Assembly (NCBI RefSeq): GCF_900107645.1
Contig: NZ_FNQN01000004.1
Coordinates: 124,001-188,000, forward strand
Source of the DNA: Desulfuromusa kysingii
GTDB taxonomy: Bacteria; Desulfobacterota; Desulfuromonadia; Desulfuromonadales; Geopsychrobacteraceae
Direction: 5' to 3'
DNA: 64,000 nt
The notes under the pieces were generated by a model, which was not told the DNA's origin, did not search any database, and worked only from the letters and a program-made list of their open reading frames with translations. The translations under genes were made by a program, and so were the position numbers. How positions within the stretch are numbered: the stretch's first letter is position 1; each line of letters starts with the position of its first letter. This document shows, one piece after another, positions 50,286 through 56,393 of this stretch.

Positions 50286-50362
50286 CGGAGCGTAGCGCAG
50301 CCTGGTAGCGCGCTTGGTTTGGGACCAAGATGTCGGAGGTTCGAATCCTCTCGCTCCGACCA
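50286..50362 (+). tRNA. tRNA-Pro (anticodon TGG)
   Basis: 77 bases with encoded CCA. The acceptor arms CGGAGCG / CGCTCCG pair fully. D-arm GCGC...GCGC; anticodon arm CTTGG-TTTGGGA-CCAAG gives anticodon TGG, and T-arm GGAGG-TTCGAAT-CCTCT pairs. Upstream is a possible but weak promoter with TTGATT at 50247-50252. It is followed by a strong terminator. Confidence 0.97.
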
Positions 50363-50371
50363 AAACAAAAA

Positions 50372-50403
50372 TAACGCTGGCCTTTTAAGGTCGGCGTTTT
50401 TTT
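50372..50403 (+). terminator. Terminator of tRNA-Pro
   Basis: AACGCTGGCCT and AGGTCGGCGTT form an 11-bp stem with two wobbles around a TTTA-type loop, followed by seven T. Confidence 0.9.
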
Positions 50404-50416
50404 GTATCTGCACGAA

Positions 50417-50429
50417 GAGAGGATTCGAA
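50417..50429 (-). repeat. Inverted 13-base copy of the tRNA-Pro T-arm
   Basis: GAGAGGATTCGAA is the exact reverse complement of TTCGAATCCTCTC in the tRNA (50340-50352). It lies 55 bases after the tRNA end, just past the terminator. Confidence 0.75.
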
Positions 50430-50487
50430 GCGAAATGAGCGCTGACTGAATGTCAGAAAAGTGACCAGGGATGGCCGCGTCAGTGAA

Positions 50488-50521
50488 TGTAGGAGGTGAA
50501 TCTTCTCGCGCCGACCAAAAC
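50488..50521 (+). repeat. Degenerate direct copy of the tRNA-Pro 3' end
   Basis: 34 bases aligned to tRNA positions 50331-50366 with three substitutions and a 2-base gap; it keeps GGAGGT, TCTCGC and CCGACCAAAAC. It looks like a decayed duplicated attachment-type site. Confidence 0.7.
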
Positions 50522-51566: not shown

Positions 51567-51708
51567 TATACTTCATCCATTCTTGGTTAAATATCTAAGA
51601 TTGATATTGATGTTGTTCCCGCCCTTATGGCATTTTTTGACAATGTATCTGTGACGCTTTTGATCCACCGGTAATAAGGATCTCTCCTTTTACTCCCAAA
51701 ATACTACG

Positions 51709-51939
51709 TTATGACAACTTTGATATTTTGCGCCACTGAGCGATACGAAGTTGATACCCATTGGTTGTGCAAGCACACTGATCTTCAGCGTCCCAACAAT
51801 TATTCCGCTGGTTGACCCACCTGTATTGTTCCGAGGATAAAACTTCCCGCTGATCATAGGAGACAACCCCTGAAGCGCTAGAATAAACCTTTTTAGAATC
51901 GTTATCCAGTGCAGACAACTCAGGATCAAAAGAAATCAT
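51709..51939 (-). pseudogene. N-terminally truncated LprI/DUF1311-like fragment
   Basis: 76 residues reading FDPELSALDNDSKKVY and then EQYRWVNQRNNCWDAEDQCAC and YQLRIAQWRK. This resembles the C-terminal part of the LprI-like (DUF1311) domain, with its L-ALD helix, the W-x-x-(R)-N-C and the C-x-x-Y-x-x-R-I-x end. There is no signal peptide and a stop codon lies in frame just upstream, so the 5' part has been lost. Probably a remnant, although it could be a short real gene. Confidence 0.55.
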
Positions 51940-52066
51940 TGCGTTAAATAGTCACGTTTTTATTTCTCACCATCCTGATGTTGAGTTTGCTTCTCGAAGA
52001 GATAATGTCCATGGACAGAACCTCTATTTTCTGAAATCGGTATTATGTCCCCGTATACTCTTCCCC

Positions 52067-52210
52067 GAGTTTTGCGAGCGCAGCGCCGGTTTACGTAGCG
52101 GAAGCAACCTGCCTTGGCAGGCGCAGGTATCGGGGCGACCTCTTTTGGATACTTTTCTATGTCGCGATAGGAAAGTATCTCGGTTGGCGGGACGAAACCC
52201 GCTGGTCTGC
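52067..52210. repeat. Multi-hairpin intergenic element
   Basis: Three hairpins in a row: CCTGCC-TT-GGCAGG (52108-52121), GATACTTTTCTAT with ATAGGAAAGTATC (52148-52179, 13 bp with one wobble), and GCGGG-ACGAAA-CCCGC (52187-52202). It has higher GC than its surroundings and resembles dispersed intergenic repeats, but only one copy is in the window. Confidence 0.55.
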
Positions 52211-52328
52211 GTTGATCAGATATAAAAAAAGACTATCTCTGGCTGATACTTCCACCAGAGTGATAGAAGCTTGAACCTGCCCCTTTTTGCCAACTGAACA
52301 TTGATGACCCCTTATTGAAACTTCTCCA

Positions 52329-52357
52329 TTGACATTTATATATCAGAATACTATTCT
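52329..52357 (+). promoter_or_regulatory. Strong promoter of the FIST leader
   Basis: TTGACA (52329-52334, 6/6) and TATTCT (52352-52357, 4/6) are spaced by exactly 17 bases. Expected transcription start near 52364, just before the leader hairpin. Confidence 0.65.
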
Positions 52358-52363
52358 TTGATA

Positions 52364-52460
52364 AGCATATCCTAATTTTCCTCATTAGAGGAAAAATCGG
52401 CACCATCCGAGTAGCTAAAACTGCGGGTCTGTAAGAGAGAGTCGGGTTCTAAAAAATACT
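52364..52460 (+). promoter_or_regulatory. Structured leader, possible degenerate GEMM-like riboswitch or attenuator
   Basis: Begins with an 8-bp hairpin TTTTCCTC-ATTA-GAGGAAAA (52376-52395). The next segment (52397-52450) has CGGCA, AAAACTGCGGGTCT and AGTCGGGTT blocks resembling the c-di-GMP-I (GEMM) aptamer, but its middle helix is short. AGAGGAA (52387-52393) can pair with TTCCTCT (52466-52472) of the terminator, which would break the terminator stem. Confidence 0.4.
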
Positions 52461-52463
52461 AAA

Positions 52464-52496
52464 AGTTCCTCTTTAGCATATAGAGGGACTTTTTTT
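52464..52496 (+). terminator. Leader terminator upstream of the FIST operon
   Basis: AGTTCCTCT (52464-52472) pairs with AGAGGGACT (52482-52490), 9 bp with one G-U, followed by seven T. No gene precedes it on this strand after the promoter at 52329, which suggests a regulated attenuator. Confidence 0.85.
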
Positions 52497-52720
52497 GTAA
52501 CCGATCAGTCTTGAGGAAACATTGAGTAGACCGACGGCCTGACGGTTGTTGCGCAAGGTAGTGTAAAAAAAGAAATCTACAACCATAAAGGTCCTTACCC
52601 ACTGGTTGAAAAGTGGCGGTCAATATTGGCCCGTTTTATCTTAAGGGCAAGAGAACAGAACGAACACAGGATCAACGATGTCCCCTATATAACTTAGGTG
52701 GGGTCTGGCAGGAGATCACT

Positions 52721-53950
52721 ATGAATGTTGGAATTGGATATTGCAATGATCGGGATGCCTTCGGCGCTGGTCATAGTGCAGCGACTGAAGCAGCGCGTAA
52801 AGGTGGAATGACCAAACCCGATTTAGCTTTAGTTTTTTGCTCTGGACAATTAGATCCCGACGAATATGTCAAAGGGGTCAAAGAGGTCATCGGTGATACG
52901 CCAATTGTTGGTGGTTCTGCACTAGGGATCATCACCAACGATGAGTTATCTTACAAGGGCGCACCTTCCGGTGTGGCACTGCTTCAATCTGAACAAATAA
53001 AATTTCAAATTGTCTCCGCTGATCAACTTGATGTTGATACGGTTGCTGCGGGTCAAAACCTGGCTGAACAGCTTGTAAAATCAGCAACCGATCGCCTCCT
53101 GCTGATGTTCTATGATTCAGTAAAAACTCCTGCTTCTGCAACTTCTCCCCCTCAAATGAACGCCTCTCCGGCTTTAATCGCCGGGATAGAATCGGTTCTA
53201 TCCTCTGCGTTTCCGATCATTGGTGCCGGGGTCGTCGCTGATTTTCAATTTTCAAATACCCATCAATTCTGCGGTGACAGCATTGGTCAGCAAAGCGTCG
53301 TCGGTGCTCTGCTCTCCGGGGATATACATGTTTACAGCAGCGTGATCCATGGCTGCTCTCCAATTGATGGCCGCTATTACCAGATCACCAAAATGGATGG
53401 GGCTAATCTCTATGAACTGGATGGAAAGCCAATCGTTGACATTATTGACGAGCTGTATGGCAATCAAGACTGGCGCAATCAGTTTCCGCTCAAGCTATTG
53501 ACCATTGGCGTGAATAACGCGGAGAAATTTCAGCAAAACCAGCAGGACGAAAGCAATTATGTCAACCGTCTTATCACCGGGATGCTACCGGATGCCAGTG
53601 GCATCGGGCTTTTTGAGCCGGACTTGAAGGAAGGGATGGAGATTCAATTCATGCTCAGAGATGGGAACCTGATGATTGAATCCGCCCGAGATAATTCTGA
53701 AAGGTTACTCAAGCAAATCGTTGCAGAGGGGAAAACACCTGTTTTTGGACTGTACATCAACTGTGCGGGGAGATCGGCAGAATATTCGAATACTGAATCC
53801 GAAGAGGCCGCAGAAATCCAAACAACAATGAATAAATATTCTGTCCCCTTGTTAGGGTTTTATTCAGGGGTTGAGGTTGCCCCTATTTATGGACGCAACC
53901 GGGGACTTGACTGGACCGGCGTCTTAATGATCTTAGCAGAGGACACCTAG
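52721..53950 (+). CDS. FIST N/C domain sensory protein
   Basis: 409 residues from ATG 52721, with AGGAG eight bases upstream. FIST_N (about 25-215; GIGYCNDRDAFGAGHSAATEAA, LALVFCSGQLDPDEYVKGVKE, DTPIVGGSALGII) and FIST_C (about 220-390; YELDGKPIVDIIDELYG, PLLGFYSGVEVAPIYG). FIST domains are proposed small-ligand sensors that work with kinases. The kinase gene starts one base after its stop, so the two form a single system. No membrane segments. Confidence 0.93.
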   Translation: MNVGIGYCNDRDAFGAGHSAATEAARKGGMTKPDLALVFCSGQLDPDEYVKGVKEVIGDTPIVGGSALGIITNDELSYKGAPSGVALLQSEQIKFQIVSADQLDVDTVAAGQNLAEQLVKSATDRLLLMFYDSVKTPASATSPPQMNASPALIAGIESVLSSAFPIIGAGVVADFQFSNTHQFCGDSIGQQSVVGALLSGDIHVYSSVIHGCSPIDGRYYQITKMDGANLYELDGKPIVDIIDELYGNQDWRNQFPLKLLTIGVNNAEKFQQNQQDESNYVNRLITGMLPDASGIGLFEPDLKEGMEIQFMLRDGNLMIESARDNSERLLKQIVAEGKTPVFGLYINCAGRSAEYSNTESEEAAEIQTTMNKYSVPLLGFYSGVEVAPIYGRNRGLDWTGVLMILAEDT

Positions 53951-53951
53951 C

Positions 53952-55643
53952 ATGGAAGAACCTGTCTCTGGAACCGCAAACTTACAAAAAAGGTGTGCTG
54001 AGCTCGAAGCGCAATTGGCTTATTACAAAGCGATTGCTAACGATACGGGCAAAAAAAGATTGCGAGAAGTTGAGCAGTTAAATCACCTCATCGCGAAAAG
54101 CAGAAGCGCCGAACATGAAAAGCAACTTGGCTACGAGCGGCTACTGACGATATTAGAGAGTGTTGATGCGGGAATATATGTTGCAGATCTAGAAACCAAT
54201 GAAATCCTGTTTATGAATAAAAAAATGGCACAGGCTTTTGGTCATGATGCACTCGGAAAACCTTGTTGGAAAGTCTTTTACAACGCACCAAAACCCTGTG
54301 ATGATTGTATCAATAAACGGTTGGTCGACGAAAATGGAGAGCCAACCGGTCTACGCTCTTGGCAGGGAGAAAACCCACTGACAGGAAAACATTATGTCTA
54401 TTATGACCGGGTCATCCCCTGGACTGATGGCAGAATGGCCAAGATTCAAAGCGCGACAGATATTTCTCAGCTAAAAAGCATGGAAAAACAACTACAACAA
54501 AAGTACAAAATGGAAGCCATTGGGACAATGGCGGGAGGTATTGCGCATGATTTTAATAATATTCTCGCCATCATCATGACCAACCTGGAACTCATGCACC
54601 GCATGGTAGAAGACGGGAACCCGTTACTGCCCAGAATTGAGAACGCCAAATCAGCGTCTTTGCGCGCCAGTGAACTGGTTAAACAAATCCTCTCTTATTC
54701 CCGTCACAGCGAGCAAAAACTCATCCCATTGCAACTGTCTGCCGGGGTGGAAGCCTCCTGTAAATTGATGCGCTCAACGATTCCAGCAAGCATTGAAATG
54801 TCAATTCAGATTGAGGATGAAGCTCGCTCAGCCATGATTAAAGCGGACTCAACTCAAATTGATGAAGTGCTAATAAACCTTTGCAACAATGCCGCTTATG
54901 CTATGGGCGAAAAAGGATTACTGACGGTTGCATTAACGCGAGAAAGTTTGAAAGAAGGAACTTTCCCCATGCAACCTCGAGGAATGACAGAGGAGTGGTT
55001 AAAACTTTCCATCTCTGATACCGGGCCAGGAATTCAGCAAAAGATTCTTGAAAAAATATTCGATCCATTTTACACCACAAAGCCCATTGGCGAAGGAACA
55101 GGGATGGGGTTGTCGATCTGTTATGGAATCGCCAAACATCACAATGGCTTTATTGTCGTCGACAGTCTGCTCGGTCAAGGGACTCATTTTTCAGTTTACT
55201 TTCCTGTTGTCGAAGCCAAGGAACTTCAAAAGAAGGAGAAGCAAGTGAAAACTTCTCCAAGAGGCCATGAAAAAATATTATTGGTCGATGACGAGAAATT
55301 GCTCGCTCAATCAATCAGTGAATATTTAGGAGCGCATGGCTACAGCGTTACGGTTGAAAACAATAGCCTAAGAGCGCTTGAACTCTTCAAGAAAAACCCT
55401 GCCATGTTTGACTTTGTGATTTCGGACCAAACGATGCCAGAACTCACAGGGATTGAATTTGCCTCAGAACTATTAAAAGTACAATCAGATCTGCCTATAG
55501 TTTTGTGTAGTGGATATAGTGCTTCAGCCTCAAAACAAAAGGCCAAAGAAATGGGGATTAAAGCATTCCTGATGAAACCATTAGCGCCTCAACGTCTCCT
55601 TGAAAAGATAAGAACGATCCTGGATGAAAACGCGTGTCTGTAA
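53952..55643 (+). CDS. Soluble PAS hybrid histidine kinase, partner of the FIST protein
   Basis: 563 residues without membrane helices. N-terminal coiled coil (about 5-60); PAS domain (about 65-180) carrying three cysteines in GKPCWKVFYNAPKPCDDC; HisKA with [17 protein letters not shown]; HATPase with DTGPGIQ and GEGTGMGLSICYGIAKHH; receiver about 440-560 with Asp in FVISDQTMPEL and LMKP. The cysteines could bind metal or sense redox, an inference. Translationally coupled to the FIST gene. Confidence 0.94.
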   Translation: MEEPVSGTANLQKRCAELEAQLAYYKAIANDTGKKRLREVEQLNHLIAKSRSAEHEKQLGYERLLTILESVDAGIYVADLETNEILFMNKKMAQAFGHDALGKPCWKVFYNAPKPCDDCINKRLVDENGEPTGLRSWQGENPLTGKHYVYYDRVIPWTDGRMAKIQSATDISQLKSMEKQLQQKYKMEAIGTMAGGIAHDFNNILAIIMTNLELMHRMVEDGNPLLPRIENAKSASLRASELVKQILSYSRHSEQKLIPLQLSAGVEASCKLMRSTIPASIEMSIQIEDEARSAMIKADSTQIDEVLINLCNNAAYAMGEKGLLTVALTRESLKEGTFPMQPRGMTEEWLKLSISDTGPGIQQKILEKIFDPFYTTKPIGEGTGMGLSICYGIAKHHNGFIVVDSLLGQGTHFSVYFPVVEAKELQKKEKQVKTSPRGHEKILLVDDEKLLAQSISEYLGAHGYSVTVENNSLRALELFKKNPAMFDFVISDQTMPELTGIEFASELLKVQSDLPIVLCSGYSASASKQKAKEMGIKAFLMKPLAPQRLLEKIRTILDENACL

Positions 55644-56027: not shown

Positions 56028-56393
56028 ATGAATGAAGTTGCTGTAGCCCCGATCAAAGCAAGTGATGAAAAATTCTGTTCAGAATGTGGTGCCACTATCA
56101 AAGAAAAAGCCGAAATATGTCCAAACTGCGGTGTGCGTCAACTCGCCCCTCCCTCTGGGGTCAATCTTGGTCCAGTCACCGCTAATGGTAAAAATAAGAT
56201 TGCTGCAGCGCTATTTGCATTCTTTTTAGGTAGTTTTGGTGCACACAAATTCTATCTCGGTCAAGTTGGCATGGGGATTTTGTACCTGCTTTTCTGTTGG
56301 ACTTTCATCCCCTCCATTGTTGCCTTCATTGAATTCATCCTTCTTCTGGTCATGAGTGATGAAACCTTCAACCGGAAGTATGGCAGAGCGTAA
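56028..56393 (+). CDS. Zinc-ribbon TM2 domain protein
   Basis: 121 residues with AAGGAG before the ATG. N-terminal zinc ribbon FCSECGATIKEKAEICPNCG (about 17-36), then a linker and a TM2 domain with two helices (about 60-82 and 85-108), including GSFGAHKFYLGQVGMGILYL. This is a common fusion in bacteria of unknown function; the membrane pair is separated by a short loop. The gene has its own promoter. Confidence 0.9.
   Translation: MNEVAVAPIKASDEKFCSECGATIKEKAEICPNCGVRQLAPPSGVNLGPVTANGKNKIAAALFAFFLGSFGAHKFYLGQVGMGILYLLFCWTFIPSIVAFIEFILLLVMSDETFNRKYGRA

Follow-up and report, generated by a model that had tools for sequence, protein, structure and literature searches.

Ahead of the genes for a FIST domain protein and a hybrid histidine kinase lies a leader that carries, in this order, a promoter-like site, a perfect hairpin, a core resembling the c-di-GMP-I (GEMM-I) riboswitches and a predicted intrinsic terminator (Table 1). 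All positions are given in the window, which is the whole 64-kb stretch of DNA that was analysed.

Table 1. Features of the leader and of the two genes behind it (window positions).
Feature	Position	Strand	Basis
Sigma-70-like promoter site TTGACA-17-TATTCT	52329..52357	+	consensus match only
Perfect 8-bp hairpin (UUUUCCUC AUUA GAGGAAAA), overlapping the 5' strand of the GEMM-like core	52376..52395	+	folding, P 0.994
Core probably derived from GEMM-I (c-di-GMP-I)	52380..52454	+	covariance models, invariant columns, pair counts
P2 of core	52397-52400/52407-52410	+	
P3 of core	52419-52429/52437-52448	+	
Intrinsic terminator, 12-bp stem 52461-52493 and U-tract to 52496	52461..52496	+	folding, predicted
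FIST domain protein, first gene after the leader	52721..53950	+	Pfam FIST and FIST_C
PAS-HisKA-HATPase-receiver hybrid histidine kinase	53952..55643	+	Pfam domains

The ATG at 52721, where a preliminary description of this DNA had set the start of the operon, agrees with three relatives of the FIST protein that are 53-55% identical and match from residue 1. Relatives at E ≤ 1e-10 are present in 2 of the 44 genomes of the family, the own genome and one other (26% identical), and the own genome holds a second FIST gene with 25% identity to the leader-linked one. Past the kinase gene lies a gene (56028-56393) for a small protein that has a TM2 domain and, at its N terminus, a zinc ribbon. On the other side of the leader, a dispersed element at 52063-52219 recurs 15 times elsewhere in the genome at 76-93% identity and lengths of about 109-165 bp, and contig C14 carries eight of these copies in some 22 kb; a domain check of two short ORFs at 51690-51939 gave none above the cut-off; and at 50286-50520 a tRNA-Pro and, behind it, an imperfect copy of the tRNA 3' end (GAATCTTCTCGCGCCGACCAAAA near 50496) form an arrangement that resembles an integration scar.

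The promoter-like site is present as previously described, TTGACA (52329-52334) and TATTCT (52352-52357) being separated by a spacer of 17 nt and sharing 10 of 12 letters with the consensus; promoter-like matches across the region occur at chance level (3 found vs 4.0 expected). If the site acts as a promoter, transcription would be expected to start near 52364. The perfect hairpin that had been proposed was recovered with its ATTA loop, and the claim that no gene lies between promoter and terminator agrees with the absence there of + strand ORFs of at least 20 aa, the length from which ORFs were listed. The terminator and its run of seven T were also found, but the stem is of 12 bp with a loop of 9 nt (P=0.997) and not of 9 bp as had been stated; a terminator scan whose loop limit was 8 left this 9-nt-loop structure off its list. 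Folded with its terminator, the leader is more stable than its shuffled versions (z -2.87, 1 of 200 equally good); without it, the leader folds ordinarily (z -1.21, 28 of 200 as good).

Curated models do not assign the leader to a family. The only Rfam match at gathering score in the whole window is a tRNA, and in the Rfam check suggested by the preliminary description the leader gave no family at gathering, the clan of RF01051 (c-di-GMP-I; gathering score, 35 bits) being unlisted even at E ≤ 10. Ten cmscan matches to other RNA families at E ≤ 10 were rejected, none being close to its own gathering score; RefA9 had the best E (0.2), and msr (8.4) and PyrR (9) were among the others. When the genome was searched permissively with RF01051, the position of the leader was not listed. 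Five clear c-di-GMP-I riboswitches (L001-L005) are located elsewhere in the same genome, and 119 of 134 genomes of the order have at least one c-di-GMP-I match. By blastn over the 44 family genomes the leader matched only itself at E < 0.02; at E ≤ 10 matches appeared in 43 of the 44, the best non-self one having E 0.025 over 23 nt. Searches gave no match in plasmids and matches of only 30-41 nt in phages; in viral contigs a 19-mer of the leader had no match, and among the matches listed for a 14-mer the loci align over short stretches with E ≥ 0.13. Except around the start codon and for a chance match of 17 nt, the three closest FIST loci (L039-L041) show no similarity to the leader, and no GEMM-I at gathering score was found at any of the five FIST loci L037-L041, which include these three.

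A covariance model built on the leader and nothing else (R1; 81 nt, entered as two identical rows with the predicted fold) was searched over 136 genomes of the order, giving 15 non-self matches at E ≤ 0.5 with 15.9-20.8 bits. Six of them (L054, L055, L058, L062, L065 and L066), from three families, are riboswitches of the Rfam c-di-GMP-I clan at the matched coordinates; the remaining nine are not GEMM-I, and their loci contain no other Rfam family at gathering. From a base of at least 885 GEMM-I matches in 134 order genomes, about 9e-5 of strand positions, 0.001 GEMM-I would be expected by chance among the 15 matches versus the six observed, which are mutual homologues and not six independent events. 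Over 277 genomes of the class R1 gave four non-self matches at E ≤ 0.05, two of them GEMM-I, and no homologue of the leader itself in a scan whose filters can miss weak ones.

The reverse comparisons, from GEMM-I to the leader, depended on the model used. Scored with R2, a mixed model built from 37 GEMM-I copies, the leader comes third among the matches of the window, with 9.6 bits and E 0.78, and a sequence-only profile of the same copies gives it 0.9 bits, a score reached by 84 of 2000 shuffles and by 244 window tiles. The model R3, which was picked after the R2 result and combines 17 copies of the local subtype, excluding the leader, L054 and L055, with the Rfam structure, gives the leader the top score of the 64-kb window, over the full length 1-79 (15.6 bits). 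Its E-values, 0.0037 in the window and 2.3e-5 on the 392-nt finding alone, tend to be too low, as indicated by control loci of related genomes, 83.7 kb in all, in which R3 gave 17 matches at E ≤ 3; these loci had been chosen by short matches to the leader and hence are no random sample. Two of the 17 are GEMM-like stretches under the Rfam threshold, one in L022 (729-803, - strand, 36.1 bits) and one in L031 (1295-1357, + strand, 15.9 bits). The canonical copies of the genome itself score from 51.6 to 91.4 bits with R3, and in 41 family genomes the model matched in 38, with canonical scores down to about 46 bits among the matches listed. When R3 was run on the genome, 150 of 1168 candidates were scored and both the leader and the own copy L004 were missed, so that searches of this kind can miss homologues. 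Direct alignment to the 37 copies places the leader above nearly all shuffled sequences: its local mean was reached by none of 1000 dinucleotide and none of 1000 structure-keeping shuffles. For the same two kinds of shuffle the counts were 6 and 1 for the best local score, 3 and 0 for the global mean and 6 and 0 for the best global score. The window itself supplies 25,568 real 81-mers, of which 39 (about 0.15%, tiles on the leader counted in) reach the leader's local mean.

The distance between core and terminator can also be compared. In the leader the 5' arm of the terminator starts 7 nt past the core end (+7), versus +11 after the aptamer in L003 and L005, two of the five GEMM-I riboswitches of the genome; in L001 and L002 the terminator lies about 40-47 nt after the aptamer, and for L004 none was found by the script. 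Terminators starting within 60 nt follow 15 of 37 GEMM-I copies versus 18 of 3000 random places, and within 20 nt the figures are 2 of 37 and 3 of 3000. L003 precedes a response-regulator gene (Pfam Response_reg); hence a signalling gene behind a GEMM-I unit has a precedent in this genome. L001 and L002 form a tandem pair on one stretch of contig C23, about 240 nt apart, with a predicted terminator after each.

It is against these data that the possibility of a likeness by chance, in an unrelated small RNA or terminated leader, has to be weighed. The silence of RF01051 even at a permissive E-value, the third rank with R2, the unremarkable sequence profile and the fraction of window 81-mers that align equally well all speak for it and count against a GEMM-I descent. 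The descent is further opposed by the nine R1 matches that are not GEMM-I, by the choice of R3 after R2 and its low E-values, by the lower stability of folds with a GEMM-like P3, and by the lack of GEMM-I at gathering score at the five other FIST loci. However, GEMM-I riboswitches make up six of the 15 matches of the leader's own model, the leader is at the top of the window with R3, and the terminator spacing is similar to that of L003 and L005, and we regard a chance likeness as unlikely.

The computed relation to GEMM-I concerns both sequence and structure. The resemblance noted in the preliminary description is real, but it is not confined to 52397-52450, the stretch being the wider one of Table 1. 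The leader keeps 23 of 37 columns that are invariant across 17 GEMM-I copies and can form 14 of 18 GEMM pairs (9 of 10 in P3, 4 of 6 in P2 and 1 of 2 in the core). A normal second helix had been denied; UCGG and CCGA are nevertheless predicted to pair at the GEMM P2 position (P 0.945), and what is abnormal is the loop, CACCAU in place of the GNRA tetraloop, with A at the invariant G of column 23. The best fold has other pairs where P3 would be. In two of the retained pairs neither letter is that of the consensus: columns 20-29, with a G-C that is also seen in GEMM-I copies, and columns 18-31, where C-G is replaced by U-A, the only compensatory change of invariant letters. When GEMM-I was randomly substituted to an equal distance in a neutral simulation, means of 8.3-10.2 pairs remained and 14 were kept in 0.6-5% of runs (P 0.006-0.05). 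This excess, which counts against decay, only hints at selection on structure, because the match was itself found by structure models.

The letters of the ligand pocket are mostly lost. We take the pocket positions to be those numbered G20, G21, C22, G45, C46, A47 and C92 in Vc2. In the R3 alignment the equivalents of G20, G21 and A47 are kept and those of C22, G45, C46 and C92 are lost: columns 12-37 (G21-C46) are G-U, columns 13-36 (C22-G45) are A-C, and the equivalent of C92 is U. The GACGC motif ahead of the kept AAA is replaced as well. In addition, the 8-bp hairpin covers the 5' strand of the core at 52387-52395 and so would stand in the way of an aptamer. With GEMM-like P1, P2 and P3 formed and the terminator kept, the energy is -18.3 kcal/mol, and with GEMM-like P3 and the hairpin it is -30.4, versus -37.2 kcal/mol for the best fold, in which hairpin and terminator are predicted to dominate. 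A P1 pairing AGGA/UUCU was considered and is not claimed, because two of its letters, UU, also belong to P3 and the hairpin competes with it.

We therefore consider it likely that the leader is a c-di-GMP-I riboswitch that has diverged strongly, has probably decayed and at present terminates most transcripts, and the earlier suggestion of a riboswitch-like leader related to c-di-GMP-I is supported, 'decayed' being likelier than 'new class'. A slim chance is given to a working GEMM-I-descended aptamer whose c-di-nucleotide pocket was reshaped for another ligand and which would still control the terminator and thus gate the FIST/hybrid-kinase operon. The retention of pairs above the neutral simulation, the intact order of promoter, aptamer, terminator and signalling gene, and the pocket itself, in which the presumed equivalents of G20, G21 and A47 persist among changed letters, would suit such an aptamer. 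Moreover, according to PMC6456294, A-to-G at position 20 alone converts one GEMM-Ib riboswitch from cGAMP to c-di-GMP. It is opposed by the lack of a leader homologue in the class-wide R1 scan (weak ones may have been filtered out), by the hidden 5' core strand, by the loss of both the GNRA loop and the GACGC motif, and by the arms of aptamer and terminator, which do not overlap. Only the lost pocket and the hairpin that blocks the core favour decay over a changed ligand.

Two readings do without an aptamer. The palindrome 52376-52395, with its perfect 8-bp arms about 12 nt past the expected start, could be a DNA operator, the RNA hairpin being incidental; genome-wide site counts give it no support, since its core pattern with 6-bp arms has one exact site and no second, and sites with at most one mismatch are as numerous as those of the reversed control (6 and 6), which makes an operator very improbable. 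Attenuation by pairing of AGAGGAA (52387-52393) with UUCCUCU (52466-52472), as the preliminary description had proposed, is scarcely tenable: the complementarity is real (7 perfect pairs), but AGAGGAA is predicted to be held in the hairpin (0.994) and UUCCUCU in the terminator (0.997), leaving the antiterminator an equilibrium P of about 5e-10; two structures with the antiterminator come to -4.9 and -9.4 versus -37.2 kcal/mol for the best fold, not the similar stability of two exclusive folds; growing-chain folds complete the hairpin before the terminator arm is made; and no leader peptide is found among ORFs of at least 20 aa.

If the leader is a decayed riboswitch, a transcript from about 52364 would carry the old aptamer scaffold, with P2 and P3 still pairable, and within a few bases would meet a strong intrinsic terminator, an arrangement like that of L003 and L005. 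With the pocket residues mostly replaced and the 5' strand of the core sequestered by the hairpin, ligand control would probably be lost. Most transcription would then stop near 52496 and yield an RNA of about 130 nt, while the FIST and kinase genes would be transcribed by leak-through or from a promoter past 52496. The closest relatives of the FIST gene (53-55%, in three MAGs) have unrelated leaders, and the FIST gene may therefore have come to stand behind this leader at a later time.

As a probable riboswitch far under what curated models can detect, the leader offers a concrete case, and since intact relatives occur in its own genome, one can ask how such sensors die or switch ligand. The two further sub-threshold candidates in L022 and L031 suggest that GEMM-rich genomes may hold an uncounted layer of relics. 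The reading of a changed ligand, if true, would represent a natural re-purposing of the scaffold beyond the reach of Rfam, ahead of a FIST gene that is rare in the family.

The leader shares with GEMM-I (RF01051; RF03167 and RF03168 belong to the same clan) the positions of a predicted P2 and of a P3 that could form, the CGGGUC...CGGGUU segments, the AAA past the core, and a terminator and a signalling gene downstream. It differs in being unlisted by Rfam, in the replacement of C22, G45, C46, C92, the GACGC motif and the GNRA loop, and in the 8-bp hairpin over its 5' strand. With the GEMM-Ib cGAMP riboswitches of Geobacter, as presented in PMC6456294, it has in common the scaffold and the setting of transcription termination, but its equivalent of position 20 is G, as in the c-di-GMP types. 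For one of the latter, GSU1761, the same paper suggests that the ligand stabilises an antiterminator, whereas the leader has no competitive antiterminator. In Clostridioides difficile, class I c-di-GMP riboswitches that are less well conserved have been judged non-functional in PMC6200980 and PMC6366702; the leader resembles them in being related to GEMM-I and likely non-working, although they are annotated as class I and it sits under the Rfam threshold. With such non-functional copies in print, GEMM-I copies that do not work are a kind already described, and what is added here is divergence below the Rfam threshold.
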